From a virus: a stretch of 38,200 nucleotides of DNA. This document shows positions 14,901 through 37,743 of this stretch, piece by piece. The notes beneath the pieces were generated by a model. It made no database searches, was not told the origin of the DNA, and was given only the letters and a program-made list of their open reading frames with translations. The DNA is taken from IMG/VR virus record IMGVR_UViG_3300028392_000142, positions 1 to 38,200 of that record. One strand, 5' to 3'. Made by a program: the position numbers and the translations under genes. Position 1 is the stretch's first letter. The number at the start of each line of letters is the position of its first letter.

Positions 14901-17900
14901 TTGAGGCTGCTGATTTAGTAGCGGCAGTTGATAAAATCACAAAGGATCTTGATGCTAAAGTAAGTGATTTATATAACATAGATAATTTTGAAAAAGCAGA
15001 ACCAATTGAACAAGCAATTGTTAATATAAACGCTGCTTGGGATTCAATACAGCAGATTCTACAAGGAGTAACGGAAATATCATCTGCAATTTCGTTTGGG
15101 GATCAGTTAGTAACGTCACAATTCAGTAACCAAGAATCATTTTACCGTGCTTTCCCGGGTATCGACAGCGTTGAGAATGGAATTTTCGATCCTTACAAGC
15201 CGGTATCAGAATTTTCAGAAAGCGAGTTGAAAGGCTTATTGGTTCCGAACTACATGTCAGAAGCAGACTTCGGCAAGAAGTACGAAGCCTTTAAAGTAAA
15301 CTCAAGTGCATTTAAAGGAAGCGTAGCGGATAATTTCATCGGTAAGAAAGAACTTACTACCGCGGCTAAAAATCAAGCATTAGTAGAAGCAAAAGTACAG
15401 GAGTCAATTGCTCGTAACATAGGCACGCAGTTTTACAACAACATCGATAGGGCTTTTGCTACCTTGATGGTTGATCCAAAGGTAAATAAAGTCCAAAATC
15501 CAGTTGAGGCTTGGGATGGTTTACTGAATAAGTACGGAGCCAATCAAAAGGAATTAGCGTTTATGGGTTGGGCTACCTTCAAAAGCGAAAACGCAGTTGA
15601 TGGAAAATTGACATCCGCACAAGTTGAAAACTGGATAAACAGTAATCGAATGAATTTGGGTGTCTTTGATCCTAAGTCTATTGAAGATCAAACAAATGTT
15701 AAAGAGGTTTATTTGTTTAGACCAGTAATGGATGAACCTTATTTGGCAACAGGCATATTAGAGTCAGGGGAATATTTTGAAATTCAGGTTAACCCTACAA
15801 TGATTGAAAATCTGAAATCAGAATTGAATAATATTGTTGATCAAACGTCGGATGAGTTTAAAACCTACAAGCAAGAATTTGAAAAACTTGCTGCGATGGG
15901 TACGATAAACCCCGATGTACCATCAATGAAACAAGCAATAAAATCTGTATTAAATGCTAGGATTCGTGCAATCAGGTCCATATATGAAGGTCCTGATGAA
16001 AAAGACAAAGATATTGTTCCAAACATTATAAATAAATATGAAGAAAATACGATATACTCTGGTGAACTTGATACTTACGGTAAGCCATTTCAAAACAAAA
16101 GTTATCACGAGTTATTGATTTCTTATCCAAATCGTTCGGTTATTAAATCAAATGAAGCAAAGGCAGAGTTATTAAAAACTTTGAATCAACTACAGGAATT
16201 TGAAAAGCAAAGAACGGCACAGAATGCAGCTAATACGGATAGTGAAATTCTAAGTCTTAGAAATAAAATCGACGAATTAAAATCCGAAATTGATATACCC
16301 AACAATTTTAGTCATAACACTGGAACGCAAGCAAATCACTTTGCTGATCCCAATGTTCAAGTGCATGCCCGAGTAAATATTCAAGTCGATGAAGAAGGCA
16401 CTCCATTACTATTCATCAACGAAATACAATCTGATTTAGGGCAAAATATCAATAAAGAGACTACTTATTTACTAAACAAAAAAGTTGCTGAGATTATTTT
16501 GGGACGTAAGTTAAGTGACAAAACAGATAATCCATTAGATGATGCTGGTATTCAAATCGCATTGAATGATGTAAAAATTAAAGAATGGCGTAATAACAAC
16601 AACGACGAAGTTAAAAGCCTAGGTAAAGAAATAAAGGATGAGTATAAAAGGTATAGTGCACTTAATCCTGATCGTTATATTTATGTCGCTTTAAAACATG
16701 CAATCAATTTTGCTATTGAAAATGGGATTACTAAAATTCAAATGAATCGTCCACAGTTTGCCGGATTATCAGTAGGGGCATTAACTAATCGACAATCTAA
16801 AGGATTAGAATTCAATTATAATACCGTCATTCCTAATGCGATTAAAGAACTCCGAAAAACATTAATGTTTGATGATCTTAAAAATACGACTAATGGAACA
16901 ATTGGTAAAAATTATGACCCTTATGATTTGCCTACAAGTGAAAAATTAGGGGAACTTTTTTCATCTTTGTATTCAGCGGAAAAAATAGGGTTTGCTGATC
17001 AATTAGCCAGAGACCCTAATAACTTGGAGTGGAGAGATTCGTTACTTAAAACTGAGTATGGCTTTAATGATTTTGAAATAAGTCAGCCAGGTATTACTAC
17101 ACAAAAGGGGTTTATAAATGTTGGTCAGACTCAATTAGATTGGGTAGCATCAAATTTTGGAAATCCTTTGAGTGGTATAACTACAGAAGAGGTTCTCGAT
17201 ACTTATGGGGAGGATTTTAAAAATACATTCGGGCGTGAAATGACAAAGAAGGATGTTGACCAATTGATGACAGATCCTCGTTTATTTACCTTGCAAAATG
17301 TATTCAAGCAAGCCTATACAAATCAAAACGATTTTATCACAATCAACATTACAGAAAAAACCAAAGATATCGTTGCTGCGGGTATGGCGTTGTTCCAGCA
17401 AGATCAGGCAGGTGCACATGGCGCCACTGTATTCCAAGACCATGGTCCGACCATTATCGCAGCGTTGACAGATGCCAACTTCTCTACTCCATTACACGAG
17501 TTGGCTCACCTTCGTGAGAAGTACATGACTCCCGAGGAGAGATTGATTGTTATGGAAGCGGCCGGTCATGACACTTGGTCTAGAGAAACTTCTGAATACT
17601 TCGCTCGGGGCTTTGAAAAGTATCTGTACGAGGGCATCGCGCCAAGTTCTAAACTTGCAAAGGCATTTGAGAATATGCGTAAGTGGATGTTGCAGATTTA
17701 CGGATCGGTTAAAGGTTCGGACATCGACATTCAGTTGACTCCAGAGATGCGTAGAATCTACGATGCAATGTTGGGTCAGGCCAAAACAACTGCTGTAGCA
17801 AATAAAATCGATATAGACAAATCAATTTACGACGAAATTGCTGTTTTTGCCGACGAAATCAAAGCGAACCCAGAGTTTGCTGGGATTACTGACGGTGAAA

Positions 17901-20900
17901 TGTACAGTGCCTTATTGAAAAAAGGGTTTGACCCGGTTGATTTGCAGGATTATTTCGCGTTGCGTTCTCGTAAAAACGTGCCGACTCAGATGGAAAACAA
18001 AGGTCAGTTCCGTGATGAGGCCAATACCATTCAGAACGAGCAAGAAACAATGCGTACAATTCGTGATGAAAAGGCGTTGACCGAGGAAATCGAGAACATT
18101 GACCCTCTTGATTTGCCTCATATGTTGGAAGCTTTAGAGGATGTGGTGTCAGATGGTGACATTCCATTTGCCATCCTAATCCGTGACTTGCTTCAGATGA
18201 AAGCAAACAACGCAGACCCTCAACAAATCAAAGAGCAATACGCAAAGATTTTAAAGATAGGAACAGGCGTAGGACGTATGCTACAAATGATGCGTCAGTT
18301 GAATGGCGAATCTATCGAAATGAATGCCCGGGGCTTATTCAAAAAAGCAGAAAGAGATGGCAAGGTTATCCCAGAAGGGGGTAAGACTAAAATCTTGGCA
18401 TTGGCTCAGCAACTTGATCAGTTAAAAGAAAAACTCAAGAGTGCACGTGATGCGGCTGCAACAAACCCATTGGGTGTCTCTAAGAACGATCCGACTAAAA
18501 ACAACATCGAATACTTTAAGTCTGTACAAGAAGAGTACAAAGGATTGGTAGAATCTTACGTGAGTGAGCGTATGCCATATGAAGGTACTTCATCATTAAC
18601 AGATTTGTACCGCTCATTGGTAAAAGGTGGATTGATGACTCCGTCTTCTTTCTCCGTGAATACGCTTTCCAACGTAACGAAATTCTTTACCAACTTCGTA
18701 GTTGACCCATTCTTGAGTCGTCCAATCAGTTTCTTAAGAAGCAAGATTACTGGTGAAGAGCAATCAACAAAGAAAGGTTTGCGCGATGCGATGCGTGGTG
18801 TGAAGTACGGATTCCCAAGTGGATTGAAGCGTGCTTGGAAAATCTTAAAGAACGGAAGTGTGATCGAAGCCTACGATAATCCAGGAGCATTTGTTCAGTC
18901 GTTCAATTCATTTAAGTCATTTGCCAACACCGTAGGAATGATTGTTTCATTGGGACAACGTAAACTAGGCTACAATGATTTGACCAACGATGAAATCGCT
19001 AGTACATACAAGATTAAACTTGATCAAGAGACAGGTAAAATCAGTACCAAGGATAGCATCAAGAAAGCGATTGAAGGTTCGTTCGGAGTTATTCCAGATG
19101 TGGTATTCCGCATTATGGGTGCGACGGATGCGGTCTTCAGAGACTACGCTTACTACAGTACTGTAGCCGAGCAGTTCAAAAACCAACCCGATAACAAGCG
19201 TATCGAAACTCAGTTGAAAGATGCTTCTATCCCGGCTGATGAAAAAACAAGGTTGCAAAAAGAACAGCGCGCATTGAGAAAAGCCTATATGGTTTTGAAT
19301 AGTGATTACGGAAACGATGTGGCTAACGCCGATGCGATGCGTTATGTATATACCGTGGACAACGATGTGACCAAAGCAATTGCCGGAATCCAAAAAGGAT
19401 TGTCTTCAACTGAAAAAGCGACCGGTTCTTTCTTACCTAAGGTATTGAAAGTATTGGGTACTGGTGTGGTTCCGTTTACAAAAATTCCTACCAACTATGC
19501 TGTGGAATTGATGGAATTCTTAATCCCAGAGTACGCTTTGTATAAAGTAGGAGTTCAAGGCAAGAAGAGAGTTGTACGTATGCTAAAGGGCGATACTCGT
19601 ACGGCTGAGGAGATTCAATCAGAAAGTTTCACTTCTAACCGTGAGATGGATAGAATCTTGGGTCGCGCGATTGCCGGGGCTACTATTCAGTATGTTGCCG
19701 GGGCTATTGCTCAGAGCGGGGCGGTGTCAGGTTCCCCTGATGACGAGGATAACCAAGGCAAGGCTAGAACCCTAGCGTATAAATTCGAACGTCCTTATTC
19801 TATTAACTTGTCGTTGTTGAAAGCGTATTTCAACGGTGAGCGTAAAGATGCTTTATGGGATCCAGAGAATGATTTAATTGTTGATTATCGTTCATTCGGT
19901 TTGTTCGGTGCTTCTTTGTACTTGCAGAACAAATTCGCTAAGGACAGCGGTAAAGAACCAAATACAGAATTTGCAAACCGTGGTGTATTAGAAAAAGCCA
20001 ACAACATGTTCTTTGGTAACTTCGGAGACGCCGGGGAATATATTTTGGACCAAACTTTCGTAAGAGGTATCAATTCATTCGCCAAAATCCTTACGGAAAC
20101 TGACGAAGATAAATTAGCATCTTCTTTGGCTGACTTCACCATCACCTTGACAGCGGGTATTCTACCAAACACTTTGAGTTTCATTGACAAGATGAACCGC
20201 AAGTACATGGTAGATTACGATGCCAAAGAGGCTCCTTCATTCAAGGCGTTTGGTATGGAAGTAGAAAGCACATTTGCAACTACCTATTGGACCAAGATGG
20301 CAATCAAGTTGTCAGAAAGATGGCCAATGGGAGATCCGACCAAGTTTGTGGACTTGCCATTTGTGGAATCTCAGTTTAATGAAATCCCTGTAAAGGTTGA
20401 TCCATTTGGTATGCCGGTGCTTCAGACCCCCGAAGGAAGCATAATGGGTAAGTTCTTTTACAATACTTTTGATGTGACCAAGGCAACTAGAGGCATTGCA
20501 GGATACGATGTACCCGATTGGGAAGCGTTGGTATACTACGCAACAAAGAAAGGTGAGTTCTGGGATGCGATTCCAAGTCTACCTCCTCGTACTTTGACTG
20601 ACGAGCGCGGAGTAAAATACAAGTTGAACCCTAACGAATACAACAATTATGTAATGTTTAATGCGCTGAAGCGTCGTGAGTTGGTAGAGAAAGCCTTGAT
20701 TAAGAATGGGGTTTACAAAAAATTCATCGACATGGAATCTGAATTGAACATGGATCAAATCAACAAAACCCCAAAGACAGGAAAGGGCAACGTGTTGTTT
20801 GGTTACGAGCAACTAGGATCGGTGTTGAGTACAGTGTATGCCGCTGCGGACAAAGCCTGTACGCTGTCTTACTTTGATTTGATCAGTTCTGAGCGTGAGA

Positions 20901-21343
20901 AAATGCGTAAAGACCAACCCGACAAATACAAAAAACTGGTTGAAGATGAATCTAAATCAGTGTATGGCAAAGCAATCAGTGATAAGATTTACGGTGGACT
21001 TGACGAATCTTCAGCGACCAACAACCACAAAGCAACTGCGGTAAGGCGTGTGAACAATGGTAAGGTTTCTTACCCGTACAAAATTGACGAGCAATCGGTG
21101 TGGACCAACATAACAGAGCAAGAAATTTCCAAATATGTGACTGGCACAATGGCTGATTTGCGTAATTTCACCGTAAAAAATCCTATTGTTCCCAAGTCAA
21201 ATACGGTTACTTTGAAAGATGGTACTCAGATGGTAGTTGAAACCCCGGCAGCAAAAGCAATCCCAAAGGCTGCGGCCTCAGAACAAAAAGGTGGAGGAAA
21301 GCAAGTTACACTATCTGATGGCACAGTAATGATAATTGACTAA
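8972..21343 (+). CDS. Giant large polyvalent protein, probably virion-internal, with zincin domain
   Basis: 4123 aa in one frame. Recognisable parts, by motif memory only: (1) about residues 1634-1720, a domain with 'TMGDLYMSHPVFDAYPD' and 'QNAIQHIEG' that resembles phage HExxH zincins, but the metal site reads GQFQN (1707-1711); (2) about 2450-2570, a domain carrying NEIQSD (E2484), common in large polyvalent proteins; (3) about 2800-2920, an intact zincin: HELAH at 2842-2846, with a Glu at about 2875 in the 'SEYFARGFEKYL' helix as likely third ligand; (4) about 3245-3700, an LPD-type C-terminal region with an Ala/Gly-rich stretch (IGRAIAGATIQYVAGAIAQ in part). The N-terminal 1600 residues are largely helical and unrecognised. 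No RNA polymerase DxDGD motif was seen. Such proteins are thought to be packaged and delivered with phage or plasmid DNA; here it follows two ejection-protein candidates. Confidence 0.8.
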   Translation: MPEDKKPTPAAATPTPKIGPLGKAPEDPNMVKPANLGSIGFDSVPTTVKKPLSKEGVKVINKAVNQVRQAEQPMSTAAELEQLQATREKELQIAKEQGYNIQNLFNSAKNNFGKVRIGNEDITSPAELLDALQDRNKKELFYFDNRHALVNNFDIYTLNDLDAKVSGGLTTIEKSNLKALPEKTIFDYTEVKAPTFGQPGYRPQTDPMGGSQLDPQNKFELGQKNYSAIQTFKKVVANGLNVTADGTKLNSYQDYFTYLADPQQRDAYGRKYNKQLSNSELVSASNILKASQILLDGASTVALDYMKRRVMDDVRVNTADDHISTTLLGKTATVYDEDIENPKSLPALTEDDLGRVVYEYENGNEITLSVGNNDKNLQDKTDYTYKDLVNYYSKLGLTGDEIDAKFAKYKQNYIYNQANGNLQIKRNAEGFFENEKGQLISKYDQSKEQRARTEMSDVDNQIADLYDELRGIYESRRAGASEIDKKAYGPTVSKSVFASSPTLGLDGQQIKRISAINTSIAKLKQQAGYNAPEFFDPSGKRIDQPEQLQQIKKIYDQTLEEEKKSDIVYLKQTRNALYEQLDILKEKIDKIKSVTSKIEVTAPEGFEYDNTPYFIKLTRAFTGILGQIDVQQSDTQKSNDAYLGKLLDQYGDLSARVKATNKLIYTNTDLTKQSEDGWIKTFGKSTAKQVAETFTGDVYNTTNDEIEQTANFLTENGYYVSPEIKEKLNTIYENKTIGEGFLESLKIGIEMSGYSRGGAAELKNIFTGQKALLLRSYMMSRYGQTGSAAFNLMESAVVKYGVPIFSWEASGQSGSGAVAEQVGTQMYDKLTGVMKFGNLIPSNIFGRLMYTAGRTLFGTGGQMTEETFSNTWSVMQQNGFDIIDAVKRAYGDTEDERLLNLRATATLCFTMSALNLENVDLVLKTDQQFRAHLDALGTPPSAVDTEILRMLNETIKHSEWDETKTPQVVQAAGTTMSGDVPVTAPSPTAQNNIEGSSATASATPSSSETDVKVEKRQGNLGEIFYVAENNGAIDGRVSYRYNAETGALEAKGLTSTSDGFVSLNEATQKHIENKSITNGIAPAAKVESLAKQNLGITEEQTENLPEDNNVLYQTPQNETGRRKQERVDKTVQSAEKRFNASLAQKAQRVLGLFTGVAENVDETDTKVRQKMSDYRNAIGNKLRVNLSSFFIDGKAVITNLVGKKIGKVADYTSALLSDFDKSFDETIDTDLNTNQPVTRRKSGNVIDKLKEGIARSNFFNEKLRPLVDAGKMTEEEAINNLMADMLLNNVSVVKDIFGNDAPAYEAFKSMRKDFNNYVANKYTGSNSFSSNENFLQNTIMSDSTTKNRKSDYNKKAQDVANAQNRRNEIAATLSDTGQGVDVAQVDGVRFLDNEITAKEYLDNNNVDTAGMTPDQMIAEAEKLANSSVNMDTYKQALSLEEENQAAKKKHVAELNRMAKGVFGIKTNNPLRRRKMIKQRQSIAAVSYALLKSNAHRAGMSMSDFMKNAVEFKKYTEVAFNALIRQNQNVTTLYQAIGRVGAEKLGADFSKAFELEEQGFTQEQVLQMTGFTKDANGEYVYQVPQTAVPKLGTFNGTMFNEIVQKVFPNFPAIQTTVSKKKFLRFNNVNSGTYTMGDLYMSHPVFDAYPDARSVSVQVINKPGADPYLFVPNAFYKEGKGSTPGKIVINTASLPQGMTGADLEMAVAGQFQNAIQHIEGVYNRPQKDAFINPNSVRTAINTLRLNEEATSDDVEFMNSMLDAFQNASIFQFSSYRSAFADIANILIGRNMMSEKALDVNDEYSPISLLAQKYGLNDSETKELATQFTNAINKLEAADNLDASSPNKTNNVMRLCLTLSGLNESQLNNSELSVKEAMNLLEAKSSLTNAIFKNLFEGPQSLTQVEKDLLAKNQDQVSQINPSPKLEATYSDILDGYADFAEVLKDVQPYMQYLDENAKAKLQGLIDLVERLKNNPFKIFEAADLVAAVDKITKDLDAKVSDLYNIDNFEKAEPIEQAIVNINAAWDSIQQILQGVTEISSAISFGDQLVTSQFSNQESFYRAFPGIDSVENGIFDPYKPVSEFSESELKGLLVPNYMSEADFGKKYEAFKVNSSAFKGSVADNFIGKKELTTAAKNQALVEAKVQESIARNIGTQFYNNIDRAFATLMVDPKVNKVQNPVEAWDGLLNKYGANQKELAFMGWATFKSENAVDGKLTSAQVENWINSNRMNLGVFDPKSIEDQTNVKEVYLFRPVMDEPYLATGILESGEYFEIQVNPTMIENLKSELNNIVDQTSDEFKTYKQEFEKLAAMGTINPDVPSMKQAIKSVLNARIRAIRSIYEGPDEKDKDIVPNIINKYEENTIYSGELDTYGKPFQNKSYHELLISYPNRSVIKSNEAKAELLKTLNQLQEFEKQRTAQNAANTDSEILSLRNKIDELKSEIDIPNNFSHNTGTQANHFADPNVQVHARVNIQVDEEGTPLLFINEIQSDLGQNINKETTYLLNKKVAEIILGRKLSDKTDNPLDDAGIQIALNDVKIKEWRNNNNDEVKSLGKEIKDEYKRYSALNPDRYIYVALKHAINFAIENGITKIQMNRPQFAGLSVGALTNRQSKGLEFNYNTVIPNAIKELRKTLMFDDLKNTTNGTIGKNYDPYDLPTSEKLGELFSSLYSAEKIGFADQLARDPNNLEWRDSLLKTEYGFNDFEISQPGITTQKGFINVGQTQLDWVASNFGNPLSGITTEEVLDTYGEDFKNTFGREMTKKDVDQLMTDPRLFTLQNVFKQAYTNQNDFITINITEKTKDIVAAGMALFQQDQAGAHGATVFQDHGPTIIAALTDANFSTPLHELAHLREKYMTPEERLIVMEAAGHDTWSRETSEYFARGFEKYLYEGIAPSSKLAKAFENMRKWMLQIYGSVKGSDIDIQLTPEMRRIYDAMLGQAKTTAVANKIDIDKSIYDEIAVFADEIKANPEFAGITDGEMYSALLKKGFDPVDLQDYFALRSRKNVPTQMENKGQFRDEANTIQNEQETMRTIRDEKALTEEIENIDPLDLPHMLEALEDVVSDGDIPFAILIRDLLQMKANNADPQQIKEQYAKILKIGTGVGRMLQMMRQLNGESIEMNARGLFKKAERDGKVIPEGGKTKILALAQQLDQLKEKLKSARDAAATNPLGVSKNDPTKNNIEYFKSVQEEYKGLVESYVSERMPYEGTSSLTDLYRSLVKGGLMTPSSFSVNTLSNVTKFFTNFVVDPFLSRPISFLRSKITGEEQSTKKGLRDAMRGVKYGFPSGLKRAWKILKNGSVIEAYDNPGAFVQSFNSFKSFANTVGMIVSLGQRKLGYNDLTNDEIASTYKIKLDQETGKISTKDSIKKAIEGSFGVIPDVVFRIMGATDAVFRDYAYYSTVAEQFKNQPDNKRIETQLKDASIPADEKTRLQKEQRALRKAYMVLNSDYGNDVANADAMRYVYTVDNDVTKAIAGIQKGLSSTEKATGSFLPKVLKVLGTGVVPFTKIPTNYAVELMEFLIPEYALYKVGVQGKKRVVRMLKGDTRTAEEIQSESFTSNREMDRILGRAIAGATIQYVAGAIAQSGAVSGSPDDEDNQGKARTLAYKFERPYSINLSLLKAYFNGERKDALWDPENDLIVDYRSFGLFGASLYLQNKFAKDSGKEPNTEFANRGVLEKANNMFFGNFGDAGEYILDQTFVRGINSFAKILTETDEDKLASSLADFTITLTAGILPNTLSFIDKMNRKYMVDYDAKEAPSFKAFGMEVESTFATTYWTKMAIKLSERWPMGDPTKFVDLPFVESQFNEIPVKVDPFGMPVLQTPEGSIMGKFFYNTFDVTKATRGIAGYDVPDWEALVYYATKKGEFWDAIPSLPPRTLTDERGVKYKLNPNEYNNYVMFNALKRRELVEKALIKNGVYKKFIDMESELNMDQINKTPKTGKGNVLFGYEQLGSVLSTVYAAADKACTLSYFDLISSEREKMRKDQPDKYKKLVEDESKSVYGKAISDKIYGGLDESSATNNHKATAVRRVNNGKVSYPYKIDEQSVWTNITEQEISKYVTGTMADLRNFTVKNPIVPKSNTVTLKDGTQMVVETPAAKAIPKAAASEQKGGGKQVTLSDGTVMIID

Positions 21344-26019: not shown

Positions 26020-27246
26020 ATGAAACTCTCCCTTAGAGCATCAATATCACTGGGTGTGGCCATTCTGATAATGATGGTGTTCTTTGGGGTACAGAGTGCT
26101 GTTGTATTTGGATATTTTGAACCAACCTTATTAATTATAGAGTTCGGGTATGGATGTATCATTGCGTTCATACCCCTTTTCTTTTTTGCGCTGATTGAGT
26201 TTGTGCGCAAAGCGAAATACAAATCGCAGTCTGTTGACGATACATTGAAGGCGATCAACATATCAAACGCTTTAGTGGAGTTGGATTTGGAAGGCAATAT
26301 TCTGAGTGCCAACAAAGTGTTTTGCGCCATTATGGGGTATTCGGCCTCAGAACTTAAAACAATCAAGCACCGGCAACTGAGTGAGCCGATGACAGACGAT
26401 GAATACCGAAACTTCTGGCGCAACCTTAAACTAGGAAAATCAAACACCGGGGAATTCAAAAAAATCAGCAAGAGCGGAGAAATCGTTTGGATATACGGTA
26501 ACTACAACCCAATCAAAGATCCGTACGGTGAGGTGTATCGCGTGATTAAGATTGCTTCGGACATCACCGACAAAAAGAAAATTGAAGGGGAGATCGCCAA
26601 AAAGAACAGTTACTTGGAGCATGCCGCCAAGATTCTACGCCACGACATGCATTCTGGAATCAATACCTACATCCCAAGGGGGTTATCGTCGTTGAAGCGT
26701 CGTTTGACAGACGCCCAAGTGAAAGAGTTGCGTATTGAAGGCCCGTTAAAACTTATCGAAGAGGGTTTGACTCACACTCAAAAGGTTTACAAGGGCGTTA
26801 AAGAATTCACAAATTTGGTTAAGAAAGATGCACAACTGGAGAAGACAGAGTGCAACTTGAAAGATATTTTGCATTCTTATCTGTCATCTACTTCCTATGA
26901 AAAGCAAGTAGTTATAGATGAGATGCCCATTAAATTGGTCAATGAAAGTTTATTCTGCACTGCCGTGGATAACTTGATTCGAAACGGCCTGAAATATAAC
27001 GATTCGCCAACAAAGATCGTTCGTATCTTTGTGGATAATGATTATTTTGTGATACAGGACAATGGTCGAGGCATGTCACAGCAAGATTTTGCGCTGTGGT
27101 CTCAGCCCTACACCCGAAAAGAAGGACAGGAAGAAGCGGGATCGGGTTTAGGACTTAACATCTGTACTGCAATCATGGAAGAACATGGCTTCAAGATAGA
27201 AGTTGAAAAGTTAGAAATAGGCACAAAAATAAAATTAAAGATATGA
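26020..27246 (+). CDS. Membrane PAS sensor histidine kinase
   Basis: 408 aa. Two membrane segments (about residues 8-31 and 37-63) with almost no periplasmic loop, so the signal is probably sensed in the membrane or by the PAS domain (about 82-185; ALVELDLEGNILSANKVF and GYSASELK typical). The dimerisation helix carries the phospho-acceptor in ILRHDMHSGIN, His208. The ATPase domain has the N box (DNLIRNGLKYND, Asn322), the G1 box (DNGRGMS, Asp347) and the G2 box (GSGLGLNI from about 374), so every catalytic element appears intact. Its last four bases overlap the response regulator start (ATGA). A complete sensor kinase inside a phage late region is unusual. The input signal is unknown; PAS domains commonly sense redox state, oxygen or small ligands. 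Confidence 0.9.
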   Translation: MKLSLRASISLGVAILIMMVFFGVQSAVVFGYFEPTLLIIEFGYGCIIAFIPLFFFALIEFVRKAKYKSQSVDDTLKAINISNALVELDLEGNILSANKVFCAIMGYSASELKTIKHRQLSEPMTDDEYRNFWRNLKLGKSNTGEFKKISKSGEIVWIYGNYNPIKDPYGEVYRVIKIASDITDKKKIEGEIAKKNSYLEHAAKILRHDMHSGINTYIPRGLSSLKRRLTDAQVKELRIEGPLKLIEEGLTHTQKVYKGVKEFTNLVKKDAQLEKTECNLKDILHSYLSSTSYEKQVVIDEMPIKLVNESLFCTAVDNLIRNGLKYNDSPTKIVRIFVDNDYFVIQDNGRGMSQQDFALWSQPYTRKEGQEEAGSGLGLNICTAIMEEHGFKIEVEKLEIGTKIKLKI

Positions 27247-27680
27247 TCGATTCTATATTACTGGTTGACGACGAGGACTTGTTCCATTTGGTGTTTGAAG
27301 ATTCATGTTCATTATTGGACATCACGCTTTCTCTTCAAAGTTTAACTTCATCAGATGAAGCAGACCGCTTATTTAAAAAGTGGTTCAACGAAGGCCCGGT
27401 AGATGAAAGACCCGAGTGTGTATTTGTCGACCTCAATATCATCGGTTCATCTTTTGACGGAATTGAGTTAATCAGAAAGATCAACACCGAGTACGGCAAT
27501 GGTGTGGTGATAGGAATCATCTCTTCTTCTGACGACAAACAGGAGATTGAAAAGGCGAAGAAGGTGGGGGCTCAGTTCTGGATCATCAAGTCAGACGAAA
27601 TCGAACCCCGTCTAGAGGCATTCCGTAAGGACTACGAAGGTTATAAAGACAAGACTGCTCCATTTAAAGTGTATAAGTGA
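27243..27680 (+). CDS. Receiver-only response regulator
   Basis: 145 aa, a single receiver (CheY-like) domain: acidic pair Asp9-Asp10 in LLVDDED, phospho-acceptor Asp63 in VFVDLNI, Ser94 in GIISSS (Thr/Ser switch) and Lys116 in WIIKS. No DNA-binding or enzymatic output domain follows, so the output must be a protein-protein contact, plausibly with the downstream membrane proteins. It overlaps the kinase by four bases, which makes it the obvious phosphorylation partner. It could also compete for or rewire host kinases. Confidence 0.88.
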   Translation: MIDSILLVDDEDLFHLVFEDSCSLLDITLSLQSLTSSDEADRLFKKWFNEGPVDERPECVFVDLNIIGSSFDGIELIRKINTEYGNGVVIGIISSSDDKQEIEKAKKVGAQFWIIKSDEIEPRLEAFRKDYEGYKDKTAPFKVYK

Positions 27681-30447: not shown

Positions 30448-30475
30448 CAAATATGTCTACACTGTTGTATATTTG
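30443..30475 (+). promoter_or_regulatory. Bacteroidetes-type promoter that decides the HNH gene start
   Basis: TATATTTG at 30468-30475, 4 bases before ATG 30480; a TTTA (30443-30446) 21 bases upstream is a near-match to the -33 TTTG. An earlier in-frame ATG at 30453 lies upstream of the element and would not be on the transcript. Confidence 0.65.
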
Positions 30476-30479
30476 TGAT

Positions 30480-31217
30480 ATGGGAAGACAATGGTCAACA
30501 ATGAAACCATTAGATGCTAACTACATTGTTAGCAACTATGGTAAGAAAACCGTACAGCAAATTGCAACTGATTTAAACGCAACCACAGACAGAGTTCGCA
30601 GGGTGTTAAAAATGCAAGGCGTACCAATGATGGGCAAATCTGAAATGTATGCCAACATCAAGCAATTAAAGTTTGATTACGAGGATGCTTTGTGCGAGGA
30701 TTATAAAAATGGTCTTTCACAAAATGGTTTAGTAAAAAAATACAAGATTGGTGCAGACAAAGTAAAGTTTTTGTTGGATAGAAATGGCGTTGATAGGTTA
30801 AAAGGCAAAGGTGCTTTTATGACAAAAGTTTGGGCAAATGGAAAACGCCAACCAAGAAATTGCAATAAGGGTGGAACTCAAGACATTCACAACGCCTTGT
30901 TTGGTAGATGGAAATCAAATGCTAAATCAAGAAATTACCCATTCACTGTGAGTATCGAATACTTGCAAAGCGTTTTGGAATCTCAAAATTATAAATGTAC
31001 ATTAACTGGCAGCAATTTGTTATGCCCGAAAACATACAATGAAAAGCGTCAAATGACATCTAACCCTTATTTAGTATCTTTGGACAGAATACAGAATGAC
31101 TTGGGTTATGAAGAAGGCAACGTTCAATTTGTTTGTGTATGGGCAAACAAAGCGAGAGGCAGTTATGACAGCAATACATTCAAAGAAATAATCAATAATC
31201 TTAAATTATGTCAATAG
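30480..31217 (+). CDS. Free-standing HNH (homing-type) endonuclease
   Basis: 245 aa from ATG 30480, chosen because the promoter element ends 4 bases before it. The N-terminal half has two helix-turn-helix-like units (KTVQQIATDLNATTDRVRRVL and SQNGLVKKYKIGADKVKFLL); the C-terminal part has YKCTLTGSNL, SLDRIQNDLGYEEGNVQFVC and WANKARG, the degenerate HNH pattern (Asp-Arg-Ile ... Gly-Asn-Val-Gln-x-Val) typical of phage homing endonucleases. It sits between an appendage gene and a small tail-operon gene whose ATG it overlaps by 10 bases, and its base composition is AT-rich, as expected for a mobile gene. It probably nicks or cuts DNA of relatives lacking it. Confidence 0.8.
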   Translation: MGRQWSTMKPLDANYIVSNYGKKTVQQIATDLNATTDRVRRVLKMQGVPMMGKSEMYANIKQLKFDYEDALCEDYKNGLSQNGLVKKYKIGADKVKFLLDRNGVDRLKGKGAFMTKVWANGKRQPRNCNKGGTQDIHNALFGRWKSNAKSRNYPFTVSIEYLQSVLESQNYKCTLTGSNLLCPKTYNEKRQMTSNPYLVSLDRIQNDLGYEEGNVQFVCVWANKARGSYDSNTFKEIINNLKLCQ

Positions 31218-31722: not shown

Positions 31723-32144
31723 AACACGTACTAATTATATTCTGCGCCTTGTTTTTGCTAGGAGAATTAATTTTCCCGGTAAAGGCTTTAAACTCTCCCA
31801 ATGTCGATGAGATTGAGGAGATGTTGAAAAATGTCGAGAGCAACATGAAAATGGCCTCTGAAGTTACATCTGTCGCTAAGAAGCAAGGGGAGAAATTGGT
31901 AGAAACAAAAGTTGTAGAAAAGGCAGAGTTAAAAGAAGCGGTAGTAAACGCTGAGGCTAAAGTAGAAGTCATGGAAAAAAAGAACGAAGTTTTCGTACAG
32001 CGCATGGTGGAAATTGGCTTAGATACAACTACTGCCCCTTCAGAAGAGGCCAAGTTAGCGGGACCGATCTATGATGAGTGGTTAGCGTACAGAAAAAATG
32101 GTGGAAAATCAGATTTTGAGTACTACCGTTTGTACAAAAAATAA
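31719..32144 (+). CDS. Secreted coiled-coil protein, possible spanin partner
   Basis: 141 aa with an N-terminal signal peptide (about 1-23, KHVLIIFCALFLLGELIFPV, cleavage near VKA/LN), then a long Glu/Lys/Val coiled coil (about 28-110) and a basic aromatic end (DFEYYRLYKK). No lipobox Cys: the single Cys lies in the hydrophobic core after Phe, so a lipid anchor is unlikely. It overlaps the preceding membrane coiled-coil gene by four bases. Lysis-related or envelope-binding role possible, unproven. Confidence 0.45.
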   Translation: MKHVLIIFCALFLLGELIFPVKALNSPNVDEIEEMLKNVESNMKMASEVTSVAKKQGEKLVETKVVEKAELKEAVVNAEAKVEVMEKKNEVFVQRMVEIGLDTTTAPSEEAKLAGPIYDEWLAYRKNGGKSDFEYYRLYKK

Positions 32145-32175
32145 TTTGTAAATTGAATTCAAAGTTATATTTTTG
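32145..32175 (+). promoter_or_regulatory. Bacteroidetes-type promoter upstream of the holin candidate
   Basis: TTTG at 32145-32148, 19 bases, TATTTTTG at 32168-32175; ATG at 32180 after 4 bases. Full two-part match to the phylum consensus. Confidence 0.7.
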
Positions 32176-32179
32176 ATAT

Positions 32180-32428
32180 ATGAAAAAATTAATTGGATTT
32201 ATTAGCGGAATGTTTACTGACGAAAAGGGTAAACCATCGTCTAAAAGATTCGTAGGAATCGTTGCTGGTTTGATGTTGTGCATCACCATGTATGAAAACT
32301 CATTTACTGAGGCTCACTTTGCTCCTGCTGAATCATTGGTGAACGCTGTTGCTGCTTTAGCATTCGGCTGTTTGGGTTTGGCTAGTGCTGACAAATTCTT
32401 CGGAAAGAAGTCTGATGGCGAAGGATAA
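32180..32428 (+). CDS. Holin-like two-pass membrane protein
   Basis: 82 aa with two membrane segments (about 24-43 and 53-74), a charged N-terminus (KLIGFISGMFTDEKGKPSSK) and a charged C-terminus (KFFGKKSDGEG). Size and topology fit a class II holin; the 'GMFTDEKGKPSSKRF' start looks like small membrane proteins seen in other Bacteroidetes phages, though I cannot name the family. It has one of the best promoters of the window and leads the chain of Lys-rich genes. Holin activity is inferred. Confidence 0.5.
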   Translation: MKKLIGFISGMFTDEKGKPSSKRFVGIVAGLMLCITMYENSFTEAHFAPAESLVNAVAALAFGCLGLASADKFFGKKSDGEG

Positions 32429-32705
32429 TCCCATACCGAAGACTACAAAAGGCAAAAGTGCCAACTACCTACCTACTAAAAAGGGGGCGGGTATGACGGC
32501 AAAGGGCGTAGCAGCCTATAAAAAAGCAAATCCTGGCTCTAAATTAAAAACCGCAGTGACTGGCGAGGTAAAGGCAGGGAGTAAAGATGCAAAAAGACGC
32601 AAGTCTTATTGTGCTCGTAGTGCAGGGCAGATGAAAGATTTTCCCAAGGCGGCCTCAGATCCTAATTCAAGACTGAGACAGGCCCGTAAAAGATGGAAGT
32701 GCTAA
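32415..32705 (+). CDS. Small basic phage protein (DUF6321-like)
   Basis: 96 aa from ATG 32415 (MAKDNPIPKTTKGK), inside the end of the previous gene by 14 bases; an ATG at 32385 would lie deeper in that gene. Very basic, with GMTAKGVAAYKKANPGSKLKT, AKRRKSYCARSAGQM and a final SRLRQARKRWKC, a pattern I associate with the small DUF6321-type proteins of many phages. Function is unknown; the charge suggests DNA or nucleoprotein binding. Its stop overlaps the next ATG (TAATG). Confidence 0.6.
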   Translation: MAKDNPIPKTTKGKSANYLPTKKGAGMTAKGVAAYKKANPGSKLKTAVTGEVKAGSKDAKRRKSYCARSAGQMKDFPKAASDPNSRLRQARKRWKC

Positions 32706-32809
32706 TGTTTAACTGTAATTTTGTTCAGCAAAAGTTAATGGAGATGAATGCCAAGACTCCCAAACAAGGTGGCAAAGTAAAAGTTAAGAAAAACAAACCA
32801 AAGAAATGA
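32705..32809 (+). CDS. 34-aa Lys-rich microprotein
   Basis: Starts in the previous stop (TAATG) and ends in the next start (ATGA). MFNCNFVQQKLMEMNAKTPK followed by a Lys/Val/Asn tail ending KPKK. Too short for reliable family call; supported by the unbroken chain of start/stop overlaps with genes of the same composition on both sides. Confidence 0.55.
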   Translation: MFNCNFVQQKLMEMNAKTPKQGGKVKVKKNKPKK

Positions 32810-32964
32810 AAAAACCAATAAAGAAAGCCGCTGCTAAGAAGATTTCTGAGTACGGAGGAATGGAAAAATATGCTTCTAAAGCCGCTATGAAAAAGCACGA
32901 GAAAGTGGAAGGCAAAAAGGTTGAGAAGAAAGAAAAAATGATGTTTACTAAAAAGAAAAAATAA
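32806..32964 (+). CDS. 52-aa Lys/Ala-rich microprotein
   Basis: Coupled at both ends (ATGA before, TAATG after). 52 aa, 20 of them Lys, including a helical centre (ISEYGGMEKYASKAAMKKHE) and a KKKK end. Likely binds nucleic acid by charge; no family recognised. Confidence 0.55.
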   Translation: MKKPIKKAAAKKISEYGGMEKYASKAAMKKHEKVEGKKVEKKEKMMFTKKKK

Positions 32965-33437
32965 TGGCTATCGAGAAACCAATTATCGGAGCAAAGAAAA
33001 AAGCCGCTAAGGCTAGAATGGCCGATGTAAAAAAAATCCCATCTAGGGGTTTAGCACCTACTGACAAATCAGTAGCGAAAAAAAATGCCGCTAGTGAAAC
33101 AAGTAAAATAAAACCAAAAGGTATATCTGCAAAACCAATGACTGAATTTCCAGATAGTCACTTTGGTGCAGTTCCAACAAGTATGTCTGGCGAAGGAATG
33201 GATGTTTATGCTGCCCATATGGGGGATCATGCCAAGGCAGTTAAGAAAGGCGTTAATAAAATTAACATGAAAAAAAGAATGTCTCCTATCGAAAGAGATA
33301 TTAAAAAGCAAGCCATAATGAAAGCATATCAGTCTGGTTCTGCTAAATCAACCAAGGCTGCTCCAAAAAAGCCAATGGCTAAAACAAAAAGCAAAAGCAT
33401 GCCCGTTAAGAAATCAACGGCTAAATCAACAAAGTAA
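32964..33437 (+). CDS. 157-aa Lys/Ala-rich protein, unknown
   Basis: Basic ends (AIEKPIIGAKKKAAKARMADV; C-terminal KSTKAAPKKPMAKTKSKS region) around a less charged centre, about residues 60-90 (MTEFPDSHFGAVPTS, AAHMGDHAKAVKKGV). The histone-tail-like composition of both ends suggests DNA binding or condensation; the centre resembles nothing I can name. TAATG overlaps on both sides place it in the microprotein chain, of which it is the largest member. Confidence 0.5.
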   Translation: MAIEKPIIGAKKKAAKARMADVKKIPSRGLAPTDKSVAKKNAASETSKIKPKGISAKPMTEFPDSHFGAVPTSMSGEGMDVYAAHMGDHAKAVKKGVNKINMKKRMSPIERDIKKQAIMKAYQSGSAKSTKAAPKKPMAKTKSKSMPVKKSTAKSTK

Positions 33438-33658
33438 TGGCTATCAAGAAAGCACAACCAAAGCCAGTGAAGAATACGGGATCAAGTATGTTCGACTATC
33501 AAAATATTTATAGCGGAGATCCTAAGAAACACCCAGGGATTGCAAAAGCAAAGGCGGATAAAGTAAAAGCAGCCGCTGCAATTGCGGTTTACAAAAAGAA
33601 ATCCGATGCGGCAAAAGTGAAAGCGATTACCGTAGCAAAAGTTAAAAAGAAAAAGTAA
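33437..33658 (+). CDS. 73-aa Lys/Ala-rich protein, unknown
   Basis: Starts and ends in TAATG overlaps. An N-terminal segment (KNTGSSMFDYQNIYSGDPKK) is followed by a Lys/Ala/Val helix (about residues 36-73) ending KVKKKK. No family recognised. Confidence 0.5.
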   Translation: MAIKKAQPKPVKNTGSSMFDYQNIYSGDPKKHPGIAKAKADKVKAAAAIAVYKKKSDAAKVKAITVAKVKKKK

Positions 33659-33807
33659 TGCCACTCGGGAAAAATGTTTCACAAAACGTCAGAGAACTGA
33701 TGAAAAAGAACAAGGCTTATGCAAAACCTGGAGGGAAAAATCCACGGAGCAAAAAACAAATAATTGCTATAGCAATAAGTGCTTCTAAAAGACCAAAGAA
33801 AAAGTAA
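33658..33807 (+). CDS. 49-aa Lys-rich microprotein
   Basis: MPLGKNVSQNVRELMKKNKA, then KPGGKNPRSKKQIIAIAISA and SKRPKKK. The 'GKNVSQNVRELM' and 'RSKKQIIAIAISA' pieces look like the small phage proteins often listed simply as DUF6496-type; I am not sure of the number. Bounded by TAATG overlaps. Confidence 0.55.
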   Translation: MPLGKNVSQNVRELMKKNKAYAKPGGKNPRSKKQIIAIAISASKRPKKK

Positions 33808-33953
33808 TGGCAGGCAAGGCAAAACCCTCAAAAGAGTTAGCGAAGTGGAAACCAAAAGCCAAGCGTAGTCGCCCGGGTGTGGTTTCTAAAAAGAAAAACA
33901 GCAAACTCAAGTCAAGTAAAAACTATCGTAAGGCGTACAAAGGTCAAGGATGA
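33807..33953 (+). CDS. 48-aa Lys/Ser-rich microprotein
   Basis: MAGKAKPSKELAKWKPKAKR, then SRPGVVSKKK and NYRKAYKGQG. Coupled at both ends (TAATG, ATGA). Resembles other members of the chain in composition, not in sequence. Function unknown. Confidence 0.5.
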   Translation: MAGKAKPSKELAKWKPKAKRSRPGVVSKKKNSKLKSSKNYRKAYKGQG

Positions 33954-34096
33954 AAAAGGGTTTGTACGCCAACATAAACGCTAAGAAAAAGCGTATTGCA
34001 GCCGGGAGTGGCGAGAAGATGAGAAAACCGGGGACAAAAGGTGCTCCGACAAACAAAGCATTCATCCAGTCTGCAAAAACAGCAAAGAAAAAATGA
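33950..34096 (+). CDS. 48-aa basic microprotein of a widespread phage/bacterial type
   Basis: MKKGLYANINAKKKRIAAGS, GEKMRKPGTKGAPTNKAFI and a KTAKKK end. The 'KKGLYANINAKKKRI-GSGEKMRKPG-KGAPT' pattern is one I have seen repeatedly in short phage proteins of unknown function. Coupled by ATGA on both sides. Confidence 0.65.
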   Translation: MKKGLYANINAKKKRIAAGSGEKMRKPGTKGAPTNKAFIQSAKTAKKK

Positions 34097-34182
34097 CGCA
34101 AGGGTTTTTATTTGGAGTAATTTTCTGTATAGTTCTATGGCTATTGGGCTATGCCGTTGCCAGTTATAAGCACAAATCATGA
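34093..34182 (+). CDS. 29-aa single-pass membrane peptide
   Basis: MTQGFLFGVIFCIVLWLLGY then AVASYKHKS: one membrane span and a basic end. Coupled by ATGA to genes on both sides. Could be a small holin-type or anti-holin peptide, or an envelope-targeted regulator; size precludes a firm call. Confidence 0.5.
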   Translation: MTQGFLFGVIFCIVLWLLGYAVASYKHKS

Positions 34183-34490
34183 AGTTTCTTACACCAATTT
34201 TACTGGCGATCTTAATCGGTTTGCTGGGTTATCAGATGTTCTTTCAGAAGGAGCCAGATACTAAAAGTGAAATCCTACATTATTTGGATTCAATTGAAAA
34301 GCACAACGAAGTCGTATTCAGCAAAATAGATTCACTAGACCGGCTGAAGCACGAGGAATACAAAGTCTACGAACAACTCAATTTAAAATATGACACAATT
34401 CAAATTGCTATTGACACTATGCCTGACATTGATGGCACAAAATATCTACTCACAATCAGTAGACAGCTTACCCTTAAAGGAGTTGAATAA
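34179..34490 (+). CDS. Inner-membrane spanin-like protein
   Basis: 103 aa: N-terminal membrane anchor (about 4-22, LTPILLAILIGLLGYQMFF) followed by a charged periplasmic coiled coil (about 27-75). This is the layout of an i-spanin (Rz). The last 101 bases also encode the start of the next gene in another frame, the overlapping arrangement known from Rz/Rz1 pairs. Spanin activity is inferred from topology, overlap and neighbourhood. Confidence 0.5.
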   Translation: MKFLTPILLAILIGLLGYQMFFQKEPDTKSEILHYLDSIEKHNEVVFSKIDSLDRLKHEEYKVYEQLNLKYDTIQIAIDTMPDIDGTKYLLTISRQLTLKGVE

Positions 34491-34740
34491 TGAATTCCTC
34501 AAAGGAATAAAGGCTCGAGAGAGAGTGGTAAGTCTGAAGACCATCATTCTATTAGACAGTCAGCAATTGAGTTTGTACAAGGACACAATCGTTCCAAATT
34601 ACAAAAAGGCACTGGACACCTGCAAGTACGAGATCGTTCGTTTAAACGGGGTCATTGATCGCAAGGACCAGGCAATGAAGTTTTACAAGTACGGGTTTAT
34701 TGGAACCACCGTACTTTTTATTTTAAAGTTAATTATTTGA
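34390..34740 (+). CDS. Secreted protein with C-terminal membrane segment, overlapping the previous gene (spanin candidate)
   Basis: 116 aa, starting 101 bases inside the preceding gene in a different frame. The start is supported by a good signal peptide (about 1-23, MTQFKLLLTLCLTLMAQNIY then SQ, the '-SQ' cleavage style common in Bacteroidetes); no later start leaves a sensible protein. Residues 25-95 are helical and charged, and about 100-116 form a membrane segment (YGFIGTTVLFILKLII). An N-terminal export signal with a C-terminal membrane anchor resembles unimolecular spanins, but the Cys at residue 11 is preceded by Leu, so a lipobox is not convincing. The overlap alternatively marks an Rz/Rz1-type pair. 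Confidence 0.5.
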   Translation: MTQFKLLLTLCLTLMAQNIYSQSVDSLPLKELNNEFLKGIKARERVVSLKTIILLDSQQLSLYKDTIVPNYKKALDTCKYEIVRLNGVIDRKDQAMKFYKYGFIGTTVLFILKLII

Positions 34741-34741
34741 C

Positions 34742-34969
34742 ATGAGTTTTGAAGAAAAGGTAAATCCCGCTTATTACAAGAACGGGAAGGTAGAGTGCAT
34801 TGATGCGATCGAGGCGGCTACAATTAACAAAACAGGCTTAGAAGCCTATTGCACAGGCAATATTATTAAGTATCTTTGGAGATGCGAGGAAAAGAATGGT
34901 TTAGAAGACATTGCTAAAGCCAAGTGGTATTTGGATAAACTATACGATCAGATGAATAAAAATGAATAA
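34742..34969 (+). CDS. DUF3310-family protein
   Basis: 75 aa. VNPAYYKNGKVECIDAIEAA, GLEAYCTGNIIKYLWRCEEKNG and EDIAKAKWYLDKLYD match the short phage DUF3310 family (often labelled 'nucleotide kinase-like' or SaV) very well over the full length. Its biochemical role is not established. Starts 1 base after the preceding stop; the next gene starts inside its end (8-base overlap). Confidence 0.88.
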   Translation: MSFEEKVNPAYYKNGKVECIDAIEAATINKTGLEAYCTGNIIKYLWRCEEKNGLEDIAKAKWYLDKLYDQMNKNE

Positions 34970-35150: not shown

Positions 35151-35427
35151 GGACGAAGCGATTGAACGCATTCAAGTTCAGATGTTTGACCCAGCCAAAG
35201 ATTTCTATGGAACTTTGGTATCCGCATCCCGTCAGTTGATGGATGCAGTCAAAAGCAAAGAGATTGATTTAGATGACCCTTACTACAAGGCTTTATTCCA
35301 GTTGCTACAGGCAGGGGATAAAATCAACAAGAGTCTGAAACTCGCCCAACTAGAGGCATATCCTTCCGAGGAAGTAGTCGATAGCGAAGTATCGTTTATC
35401 GATCGCATGGCAGGTAAGAAAAAATAA
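35107..35427 (+). CDS. Possible terminase small subunit
   Basis: 106 aa, helical, acidic, starting inside the previous gene and ending in the ATG of the large terminase (TAATG). An N-terminal helical part (KLKAFLKKVNITEDEAIERI), a central helical bundle (about 30-85) and a basic end (DRMAGKKK). Position directly before the large subunit and size fit a terminase small subunit, the DNA-recognition partner. No clear helix-turn-helix can be pointed to, so the call rests on context. Confidence 0.45.
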   Translation: MDKLKAFLKKVNITEDEAIERIQVQMFDPAKDFYGTLVSASRQLMDAVKSKEIDLDDPYYKALFQLLQAGDKINKSLKLAQLEAYPSEEVVDSEVSFIDRMAGKKK

Positions 35428-37265
35428 TGGAAATCCTAACTAAACAGAAGAGTTCAAAGTTCGTCTACGAGGATTGGGCGGCTAAATACCTCATTAACCC
35501 CAACGCCACTCGCAAAGAAAAGGATATCTGGTGGAACACCGAGATGGAATTCTGGCGCACCGGCCGATTTGGATTGACGGGGGCTCAGTATTTCTTTCTG
35601 AGTCAGGCTACAATCAAGGAAGCCACGGGTCTCAGAATCAAACCTATTTGGCGTGACTTGGACGATTTGATCTACCAATCTTACGACGAAGCCAGAAATA
35701 CATATTGGGATTTGATGGTTACCAAACGACGTGAGGCAGGTTTGTCTCTGACCTTTGGGGGAGTGATTCCTGTATGGATATCATTGACCAATCCCGGATC
35801 TACTTCTCTGCTCACCTCCGCGGATAAAACGCGACTCGAGGAAATGTTCAAGGACAAGACTCGTGTAATCTATGATGGCTTGGACGATTACATCCGACCT
35901 TCGGTTATTAGTACACGTCAGAGCGGTTACCTGCATATGGGTCAGTTGGATCAAAAGACAGGAGCAATCTCTGGACTTGACTCAAAGATTATTACCCGTG
36001 ACACGGTGGATAGCCCTCAGTCATTGGAAGCGTTTCGTGCGATGCATATCTTTTTGGATGAGTTCTTTCTTCATCCTAAGGCAGATGTAGTGTATCGTTC
36101 GGCACAGGCGTCAACAAAGAAAGGTTTCATGAAGGTGGCTCCTATTGTTATGGGAGGAAGTGCCGGGGAATCTTCGGTGATAGGTCAGAAGAAAGGAGCA
36201 GAACTTTGGCGGAATGCGGAAACGATCAAGATGCTTACAGTTTTCTTGCCGGGATGGATGGGTATTACGGCGGCGCCAGAACTTGATGCAAGAGGTAAGG
36301 AAACAGGAAAGATAATTAACTTCTGTCCTAATGGATGGAGTGATGAAAAGATTGCTACTGAGTGGATTCTGAGAACCCGCGACAACTTAAATAAACTTGA
36401 GGATAAGAGTTTCTTGGATTCTTTCATCAAACAGTATCCATTGGATATCCAGGAAGTATTTAGTGCCAATGCAAAGGGTGCTTTACCTGCGGATGTGATG
36501 GCTAAATTAAACGAGCAAGAAAGGATTATTCTCGGAAGCCCCCCGCCAATAGAAAAGTGTAACCTGTCGCGCGATGTAAACGAAAAGTTGCAGGTGAGTC
36601 CAGTACAAAACGGCAAGATTCTGATTTTGGAACGCTTCAACCCGCTTCACAAATACATCTGTGGCATGGACCCGATTCCATTCGTCTCGTCGAAGTTGAA
36701 TGATGGCTCTGACAATTGTATTGTGGTGAAGAATTTAGACACCAACCGCTACGTTGCTATTTACAAAGAGCGCGCGCTGGACCCAGATATCATCATGCAC
36801 AACAACATCCTGCTTCAAGATTATTATGGCAAGGCAAAGGTGATGATTGAAGTAAACCGAGGAGGTGTAATCCTCGATCACTATAAACAGCGTAACAGAC
36901 TCGATCTCTTGGCACAGCGACCATCGCTACTGGGAAAGGTTTTCGTTAGCGGAGAACGCTCCTTTGGATGGTATAAGAACGATCATACAGGAGAGAGAGC
37001 CAACTCATACATCATCGATTACTTAAGAAAGTACTGGGACTCAGTTTATTTTATGGAAATCATTGAAGAGGCCAAACTTTACCTAGTAGACAACACGGAT
37101 ATCGTGGATGCTATGGTCTCAGCAGAAATTTACCACCGACAGATCATCGAAAAAGGTAAACGGGATACTGGACCCGAGTTAGAGGTCAAGAAAATCCCGT
37201 TCATTGAGATGGTAGACGGCCGAGCCGTTAGGGTGTGGAAAGAGATTCGTGTGGAACGACGGTAA
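35427..37265 (+). CDS. terL: Terminase large subunit
   Basis: 612 aa. ATPase half: a Walker A-like strand-loop VTKRREAGLS (residues about 98-107; an 'R/K-rich loop, Gly-Leu-Ser' rather than the classical GKT/S), Walker B HIFLDEF with Asp211-Glu212. Nuclease half: acidic residues expected for RNase H-like terminases at Asp415 (CGMDP), Glu475 (MIEVNRGG) and Asp558/Asp561 (DIVDA). It would drive DNA into the prohead and cut concatemers. It begins in the stop of the small-subunit candidate. Its last 38 bases overlap, tail to tail, the DnaA-like gene on the other strand, so there is no room for a terminator between them. Confidence 0.92.
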   Translation: MEILTKQKSSKFVYEDWAAKYLINPNATRKEKDIWWNTEMEFWRTGRFGLTGAQYFFLSQATIKEATGLRIKPIWRDLDDLIYQSYDEARNTYWDLMVTKRREAGLSLTFGGVIPVWISLTNPGSTSLLTSADKTRLEEMFKDKTRVIYDGLDDYIRPSVISTRQSGYLHMGQLDQKTGAISGLDSKIITRDTVDSPQSLEAFRAMHIFLDEFFLHPKADVVYRSAQASTKKGFMKVAPIVMGGSAGESSVIGQKKGAELWRNAETIKMLTVFLPGWMGITAAPELDARGKETGKIINFCPNGWSDEKIATEWILRTRDNLNKLEDKSFLDSFIKQYPLDIQEVFSANAKGALPADVMAKLNEQERIILGSPPPIEKCNLSRDVNEKLQVSPVQNGKILILERFNPLHKYICGMDPIPFVSSKLNDGSDNCIVVKNLDTNRYVAIYKERALDPDIIMHNNILLQDYYGKAKVMIEVNRGGVILDHYKQRNRLDLLAQRPSLLGKVFVSGERSFGWYKNDHTGERANSYIIDYLRKYWDSVYFMEIIEEAKLYLVDNTDIVDAMVSAEIYHRQIIEKGKRDTGPELEVKKIPFIEMVDGRAVRVWKEIRVERR

Positions 37266-37743
37266 CAAGGATGTCTTCTTTTACCTTCTCGTAGACTTTG
37301 GCATAGTGCTTCGAAGACTGCATGAAATTTTCATGTTGCTTTACCGAATGAATCACTGTGCTGTGGTCTTTGCGGAAGATCGTTCCAATCTTTTCGTAGG
37401 TGTAGTGTAGTTCGTTCCTCATATAATACATGACCTGCCTTCGACAATCTACAAACTCTTCCTTTCTTCTGTTGCCACAGAAATCCAATATGGAAATCGT
37501 GTGTACTATGCACGCACAATCAATGACCTGCCTATCGATCGTCTTCAGCACGTTGTAGACGATGATCATGCTCGGTCGTTGGGGTTTGGTAGTGATAGGA
37601 TTCAGCGTACGATTTTTATACTTTAGGTAAAAGGCATTTCTATTGATCGCGCGAATGATGCGATTCGTTTCTAAGGAGTCGAGTTCCAGTTGGTGAACTA
37701 CTAACTCCAATATCTCAGCGGTAAATTCTGCTACGGTAGGCAT
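37228..37743 (-). CDS. DnaA domain IV-only protein
   Basis: 171 aa read on the minus strand. The C-terminal half (about 83-158) contains CRRQVMYYMRNELHYTYEKI and the DnaA signature RKDHSTVIHS (124-133; consensus Gly-x-[RK]-Asp-His-[ST]-Thr-Val), the helix-turn-helix of DnaA domain IV that reads DnaA boxes. The AAA+ ATPase domain is missing; the first 80 residues are helical and unrecognised. It probably binds DnaA-box-like sites of phage or host, either to start phage replication or to control host initiation or transcription. The ATG directly follows the stop of the upstream minus-strand gene (TAA ATG), indicating coupling. Its 3' end overlaps terL by 38 bases. Confidence 0.8.
   Translation of the reverse strand: MPTVAEFTAEILELVVHQLELDSLETNRIIRAINRNAFYLKYKNRTLNPITTKPQRPSMIIVYNVLKTIDRQVIDCACIVHTISILDFCGNRRKEEFVDCRRQVMYYMRNELHYTYEKIGTIFRKDHSTVIHSVKQHENFMQSSKHYAKVYEKVKEDILVTVVPHESLSTP

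Follow-up and report, generated by a model that had tools for sequence, protein, structure and literature searches.

What would a phage do with eight small, lysine-rich proteins encoded end to end? The question is raised by a chain of nine ORFs, eight of them basic (p1 to p8) and the last a membrane peptide, in the window, the 38,200-nt stretch of IMG/VR record IMGVR_UViG_3300028392_000142 analyzed here. An earlier note placed this chain at 32415–34182, and its ORF sizes and stop/start joints proved exact to the coordinate (Table 1). The eight basic ORFs are 34–157 aa long, with pI 10.2–11.4 and 20–38% Lys. We think it rather probable that the cassette encodes small basic proteins packaged in the virion, with delivery as their likely purpose.

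By its muzzle protein, the window phage is crAss-like. An ORF at 1159–1809 has a weak resemblance to CrAss_Ring_2 (21.4 bits, below the cut-off of 27). A 4123-aa ORF downstream of the muzzle gene (8972–21343), without any Pfam match, is possibly a giant virion or ejected protein of the crassvirus type. Relatives were collected via the terminase, which gave 21 loci in IMG/VR (loci other than the window are given L numbers below). No match to the window terminase was found in 50,697 phage records or among bacterial and archaeal genomes. Since its relatives are limited to IMG/VR, the phage represents an uncultured crAss-like lineage, host not identified. The company that its modules keep suggests that this lineage is aquatic.

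Table 1. Cassette genes, their borders and landmark genes of the window
Feature	Coordinates	Strand	Evidence
Crassvirus muzzle protein, 1477 aa	2301..6734	+	PF25731, E 2.2e-38, 132.5 bits (cut-off 27)
Small membrane protein, 82 aa; fixed left border, upstream	32180..32428	+	99–100% identity in close relatives
p1, 96-aa DUF6321 microprotein	32415..32705	+	PF19846, 49.9 bits (gathering cut-off 28.5); phrog_10346 and others
p2, 34-aa basic ORF	32705..32809	+	62–100% identity in relatives
p3, 52-aa Lys-rich ORF (38% Lys)	32806..32964	+	64–96% identity in most relatives
p4, 157-aa basic ORF, variable slot	32964..33437	+	Full-length in L010 only (87%)
p5, 73-aa basic ORF, variable slot	33437..33658	+	In L010 only (99%)
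p6, 49-aa basic ORF	33658..33807	+	Weak DUF6496/phrog_2423 resemblance (phrog_2423 E 0.026)
p7, 48-aa basic ORF, most persistent cassette gene	33807..33953	+	67–83% identity in relatives
p8, 48-aa 'KKGLYANI' protein	33950..34096	+	phrog_16028, E 4.4e-24, profile 2–49/50
29-aa hydrophobic (membrane) ORF, chain end	34093..34182	+	86–100% identity in close relatives
Two nested-overlapping small membrane/secreted ORFs, 103 and 116 aa; fixed right border	34179..34740	+	91–100% identity in close relatives
Terminase large subunit	35427..37265	+	phrog_6681, E 7.5e-13

Judged by substitution patterns, the cassette ORFs are genuine, conserved protein-coding genes. Median dN/dS, estimated against relatives by the Nei–Gojobori method with synonymous sites saturated in many of the more distant pairs, was 0.10 for p1 (92 comparisons), 0.01 for p2 (4), 0.10 for p3 (14), 0.12 for p6 (3), 0.135 for p7 (35), 0.07 for p8 (90) and 0.04 for the 29-aa ORF (2). 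Single comparisons gave 0.57 for p4 and 0.13 for p5. Values of 0.01–0.14 wherever several comparisons were possible rule out chance Lys-rich ORFs.

All cassette junctions read TAATG or ATGA. The offsets from p1 to the 29-aa ORF are −1, −4, −1, −1, −1, −1, −4 and −4, and the 29-aa ORF overlaps the next gene with an offset of −4. Overlaps of these two kinds thus occupy 9/9 cassette junctions versus 8/28 elsewhere in the window (Fisher p = 2e-4). The first 14 nt of p1 are also part of the upstream 82-aa gene. In the cassettes of seven relatives, −1/−4 overlaps are found at 37 of 56 junctions and spacers of 1–129 nt at the remaining 19, so selection does not act strongly on strict coupling itself. 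The earlier note had read the coupling as a device for equal-dose production. We find no support for that idea, since the overlaps are not conserved and gene content differs between near-identical phages. Conservation in relatives extends to the genes, with their low dN/dS, but not to the strict overlaps or the gene set. AT skew reaches 0.31 at window positions 32001–34000, by far the highest of the window, as the lysine AAA/AAG codons of the cassette would predict.

Cassette gene sets differ among close relatives, between constant left (82-aa) and right (103/116-aa) borders. The right-border pair is spanin-like by layout only. Locus L004 has neither p4 nor p5, and its p2 and p3 are separated by two other basic genes, of 106 and 173 aa; in L005 a 128-aa gene replaces p4/p5; and L007 and L010 carry a DUF5872-like 114-aa gene at the place of p8 (L007 copy: PF19197, E 9.9e-13). 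Across L004, L005 and L007, p4 is replaced or absent and p5 is absent. The p3 gene is kept in most relatives, some of which have unrelated cassette genes flanking it.

Pairs with swapped cassette genes have flanks that are 88.6–99.4% identical. Four pairs yielded 20 alignment breakpoints, and 18 of these are no more than 20 bp from a junction between genes (21% expected); this gives p = 7e-11, or p = 5e-9 for unique breakpoints only, the breakpoints being not fully independent of one another. According to these alignments, the cassette exchanges whole genes at junctions. Several junctions have an A-rich lysine-codon/TAATG sequence in common, and for L004 the ends of p3 and p5 align over about 30 bp. 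Both similarities would allow whole-gene exchange, and the A-rich junctions probably double as short homologies for the swaps. In many distant loci, p1, p3, p7 and p8 retain 67–93% identity where the upstream flank genes show 36–61% (for p7, 67–83% where they show only 36–60%), as expected for horizontal exchange. A cassette protein of one relative has a weak match to phrog_220 ('minor head protein and DNA pilot', E 0.0013), which we take as a lead only.

Relatives in a cultured-phage context were found for p1 and p8 and for none of p2–p5 and p7; a search of 50,697 phage records gave no match to p7. The p1 family has 12 invariant positions among 26 diverse sequences, including C66, W94 and C96. 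Its model has four helices (pLDDT 81.5, pTM 0.58), with no fold relatives in the PDB at E<=0.001 and no PDB sequence match; confident BFVD matches, where named, are other members of DUF6321. For p8, membership of phrog_16028 follows from a full-length profile match together with the core GLYxNI...GSGEKMRKPG..GAPT. This family has 16 invariant positions among 21 sequences, and the p8 model has two helices (pLDDT 78.8, pTM 0.46). The invariant positions of the two families are mostly not lysine, and two of those in p1 are Cys. With 12 and 16 invariant residues, a composition-only reading of p1 and p8 as just lysine-rich is excluded. We also rejected p6 as a member of DUF6496 (PF20106), at 12.7 bits against a Pfam cut-off of 24; its resemblance is to the beginning of these short basic families (DUF6496/phrog_2423). 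No paper by the names DUF6321 or DUF6496 was found in the open literature searched.

Both families are widespread. DUF6321 is present in 384–465 of the records searched, including cyanophage and pelagiphage genomes. Loci of the p8 type number at least 576 in IMG/VR, where 576 of 600 among the matches listed encode relatives. A p1-type gene lies near p8 on the same strand, with a median gap of 9 bp, in 48 of the 80 best p8 loci listed. Among the long-ORF neighbours of p8 that could be named, terminase (18), portal (8) and major head (about 11) genes predominate. DUF6321 genes or modules adjoin terminase, portal or capsid genes in HTVC027P, 023Pt_psg01, DSL-LC05, S-H34, P-TIM68, S-BM1, S-SM1 and S-SZBM1, and some sit between terminase subunits. 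The exception is Ma-LMM01, whose DUF6321 gene is among replication genes. Going by gene order, the p1 and p8 module families share the head-gene regions of unrelated phages.

Records from cyanophages connect these modules to virions. The cyanomyophage T4-GC119 protein strings together basic modules, 'KPGW', 'DACY' and a C-terminal DUF6321. DACY is the N-terminal part of the DUF5872-like protein in the cassette of L007, and the p8-type module is fused with DUF6321 in phrog_11180. Mass spectrometry of the S-CREM2 virion proteome detected ORF137 (4 unique peptides, 4.1% coverage) and ORF160 (7 peptides, 13.1% coverage) (PMC10665884). ORF137 ends in DUF6321 (residues 415–488) and ORF160 contains KPGW and DACY modules; the ORF137 peptides, at such coverage, may originate outside the DUF6321 module. 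In S-SCSM1, protein 29 (517 aa, between terminase genes) combines KPGW, DACY and DUF6321 and is labelled 'virion protein', a label that appears to mark proteins found by mass spectrometry (PMC9602691). The capsid-interior role suggested in the earlier note gains indirect support from the S-CREM2 proteins, the S-SCSM1 label and the targeting sequences on some homologues (below), and the virion list of S-SZBM1 speaks against it. Small Lys-rich proteins yield few usable tryptic peptides, so absence from that list is weak evidence, yet it counts. The list (PMC9146016) has neither the DUF6321 protein 192, which bears a targeting sequence, nor its 707-aa relative 194. Proteins 139 and 136, which are in the list, have none of the modules discussed here.

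T4 internal proteins enter the capsid behind a targeting sequence that prefers aromatic residues at positions 4 and 7, [ILMV] at 8 and Glu at 10, and we scanned for this pattern. The sequence is N-terminal and 10 residues long; targeting depends on positions 4 and 7, and processing on 8 and 10 (PMC9026906). It was found in 7 of 197 DUF6321 ORFs versus 11 of 4670 others (p = 3.5e-6, which is optimistic since some of the seven carriers are related). The 11 other carriers are all one family, which adjoins the DUF6321 gene in S-SZBM1 and S-SCSM1. A cyanophage family of ~105 aa opens with the T4-type sequence MKSF..FLSES beside DUF6321 genes (L115:37312-37629 on the minus strand, L362:44215-44535). 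No cassette protein of the window has such an N-terminus, and the homologues that do are DUF6321 proteins of T4-like phages only. A [LIVMF]xE motif directly precedes the DUF6321 module in 20 of 38 fused proteins (4.7 expected), which suggests release of the module by a prohead protease; there is little or no such excess before DACY and KPGW.

A different leader, 'M[RM].SRGMG.I.PSKMP...GG', begins 103 distinct ORFs, all with pI >= 10.25 (e.g. L180:1780-2055). It precedes at least six unrelated basic modules, including the p8-type, DUF6321 and DACY modules. Most of these ORFs come from a scan seeded with one module, which biases their proportions but not the variety of modules. T4 internal proteins likewise have one leader on unrelated small basic proteins, and from its arrangement the RGMG leader looks like a targeting or leader peptide. 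We found no description of it, and it is on no cassette protein of the window.

The neighbourhood of terminase, portal and capsid genes would also suit late, non-virion factors that help to build the head or to package the DNA and do not reach the next host; partners of terminase or portal that neutralise charge or resemble chaperones would be examples. The DUF6321 protein missing from the S-SZBM1 list agrees with this. We nevertheless consider such factors unlikely, given the module-bearing proteins in S-CREM2 virions and under the virion label of S-SCSM1, and given content swaps between near-identical phages, which are unexpected for an assembly role. Alternatively, the cassette might simply be an accessory-gene hotspot, its products being intracellular takeover proteins that are made late, stay unpackaged and act on the nucleoid, RNA polymerase or ribosomes of the host. 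A fixed slot whose content varies and a basic composition both fit. The recurrent head-gene neighbourhood and the virion association of module-bearing relatives do not, and we give this explanation little credence.

From composition, the earlier note suggested that the proteins perhaps condense phage DNA. In that case many copies of internal peptides would neutralise the packaged DNA without a specific target, like protamines or T4 internal peptides. A Lys content of 20–38% and pI above 10 are in keeping with this, and lysines of T4 internal proteins contact DNA phosphates (PMC3012670). But p1 and p8 have fixed, family-specific residues, 12 and 16 of them, most not lysine and two of them Cys in p1, as well as modelled helices at pLDDT about 80. 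Presence and absence also vary among near-identical phages, and a host-conflict role fits a highly variable gene set better than an obligatory packing role does. We regard condensation as improbable.

If instead the cassette proteins are packaged for delivery, each microgene would supply a compact lysine-rich module, made late. In the window phage, these modules would travel in the head alongside the DNA and probably pass into the host on ejection. There, the changing set would meet changing host defences or host functions; gene turnover may point to an anti-defence or host-takeover role. The cassette would then work like the T4 IPI/IPII/IPIII locus, as free microproteins without the T4 targeting peptide. 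Once injected, T4 IPI inhibits a restriction enzyme (PMC9026906, PMC3012670). As in T4, the proteins are small and basic and the set is observed to vary between related phages. T4 internal proteins are head-associated, whereas the virion evidence for the cassette comes from cyanophage module-bearing proteins only. The window genes differ in forming an overlapping chain without a targeting sequence. Because that sequence was looked for and not found, we do not class the cassette as an internal-protein locus.

Two other systems are comparable. Cyanophage T4-GC119/DUF6321 proteins (phrog_727, 3477, 10346, 11180) have the same DUF6321 module as p1, and fuse it in tandem with the DACY module seen in the L007 cassette. 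They differ from the separate microgenes of the window in that a single large protein, encoded between terminase genes, carries the modules, and these are preceded by Glu-containing sites. The capsid and tail of crassvirus virions are known to hold protein cargo (PMC10172136), and the window phage has the crass muzzle. The cargo proteins gp45 and gp46 and the RNA-polymerase proteins of PhiCrAss001, however, are proteins of 60–277 kDa rather than microproteins, and homology is not expected.

More tentatively, crAss-like, T7-like, pelagiphage and T4-like aquatic phages might share a pool of basic cargo modules kept in three formats, a possibility that we hold with less than even confidence. Some modules would follow a T4-type capsid-targeting sequence or form part of protease-cleavable polyproteins; others would follow the RGMG...GG leader, which would be a second capsid-targeting signal; and others, as in the window, would be encoded by free microgenes shuffled at stop/start junctions. 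In the Synechococcus phage S-RIP2 (L111:5989-6501), a p8-type module runs into signal-peptide/outer-membrane-like sequence within an annotated 170-aa ORF, which is either a fusion or two merged genes.

Tying DUF6321 and its companion modules to the virion would assign a role that can be tested to 'hypothetical' microproteins that are widespread but missed by gene-length cut-offs. If true, crAss-like phages possess an interchangeable repertoire of packaged microproteins, much like the injected anti-restriction proteins of T4, in an order where protein ejection is only beginning to be understood.

Several other genes of the window can be named. Positions 26020–27680 encode a PAS-domain histidine kinase and an adjoining, overlapping response-regulator-like gene (Pfam), unusual cargo for a phage. 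An HNH/endonuclease VII-like gene with an N-terminal DNA-binding part lies upstream of the cassette (30453–31217), and a small DUF3310 (nucleotide kinase-associated) gene lies between cassette and terminase (34742–34969). At the window end, a protein with the DnaA C-terminal helix-turn-helix is encoded on the minus strand (37228–37743).
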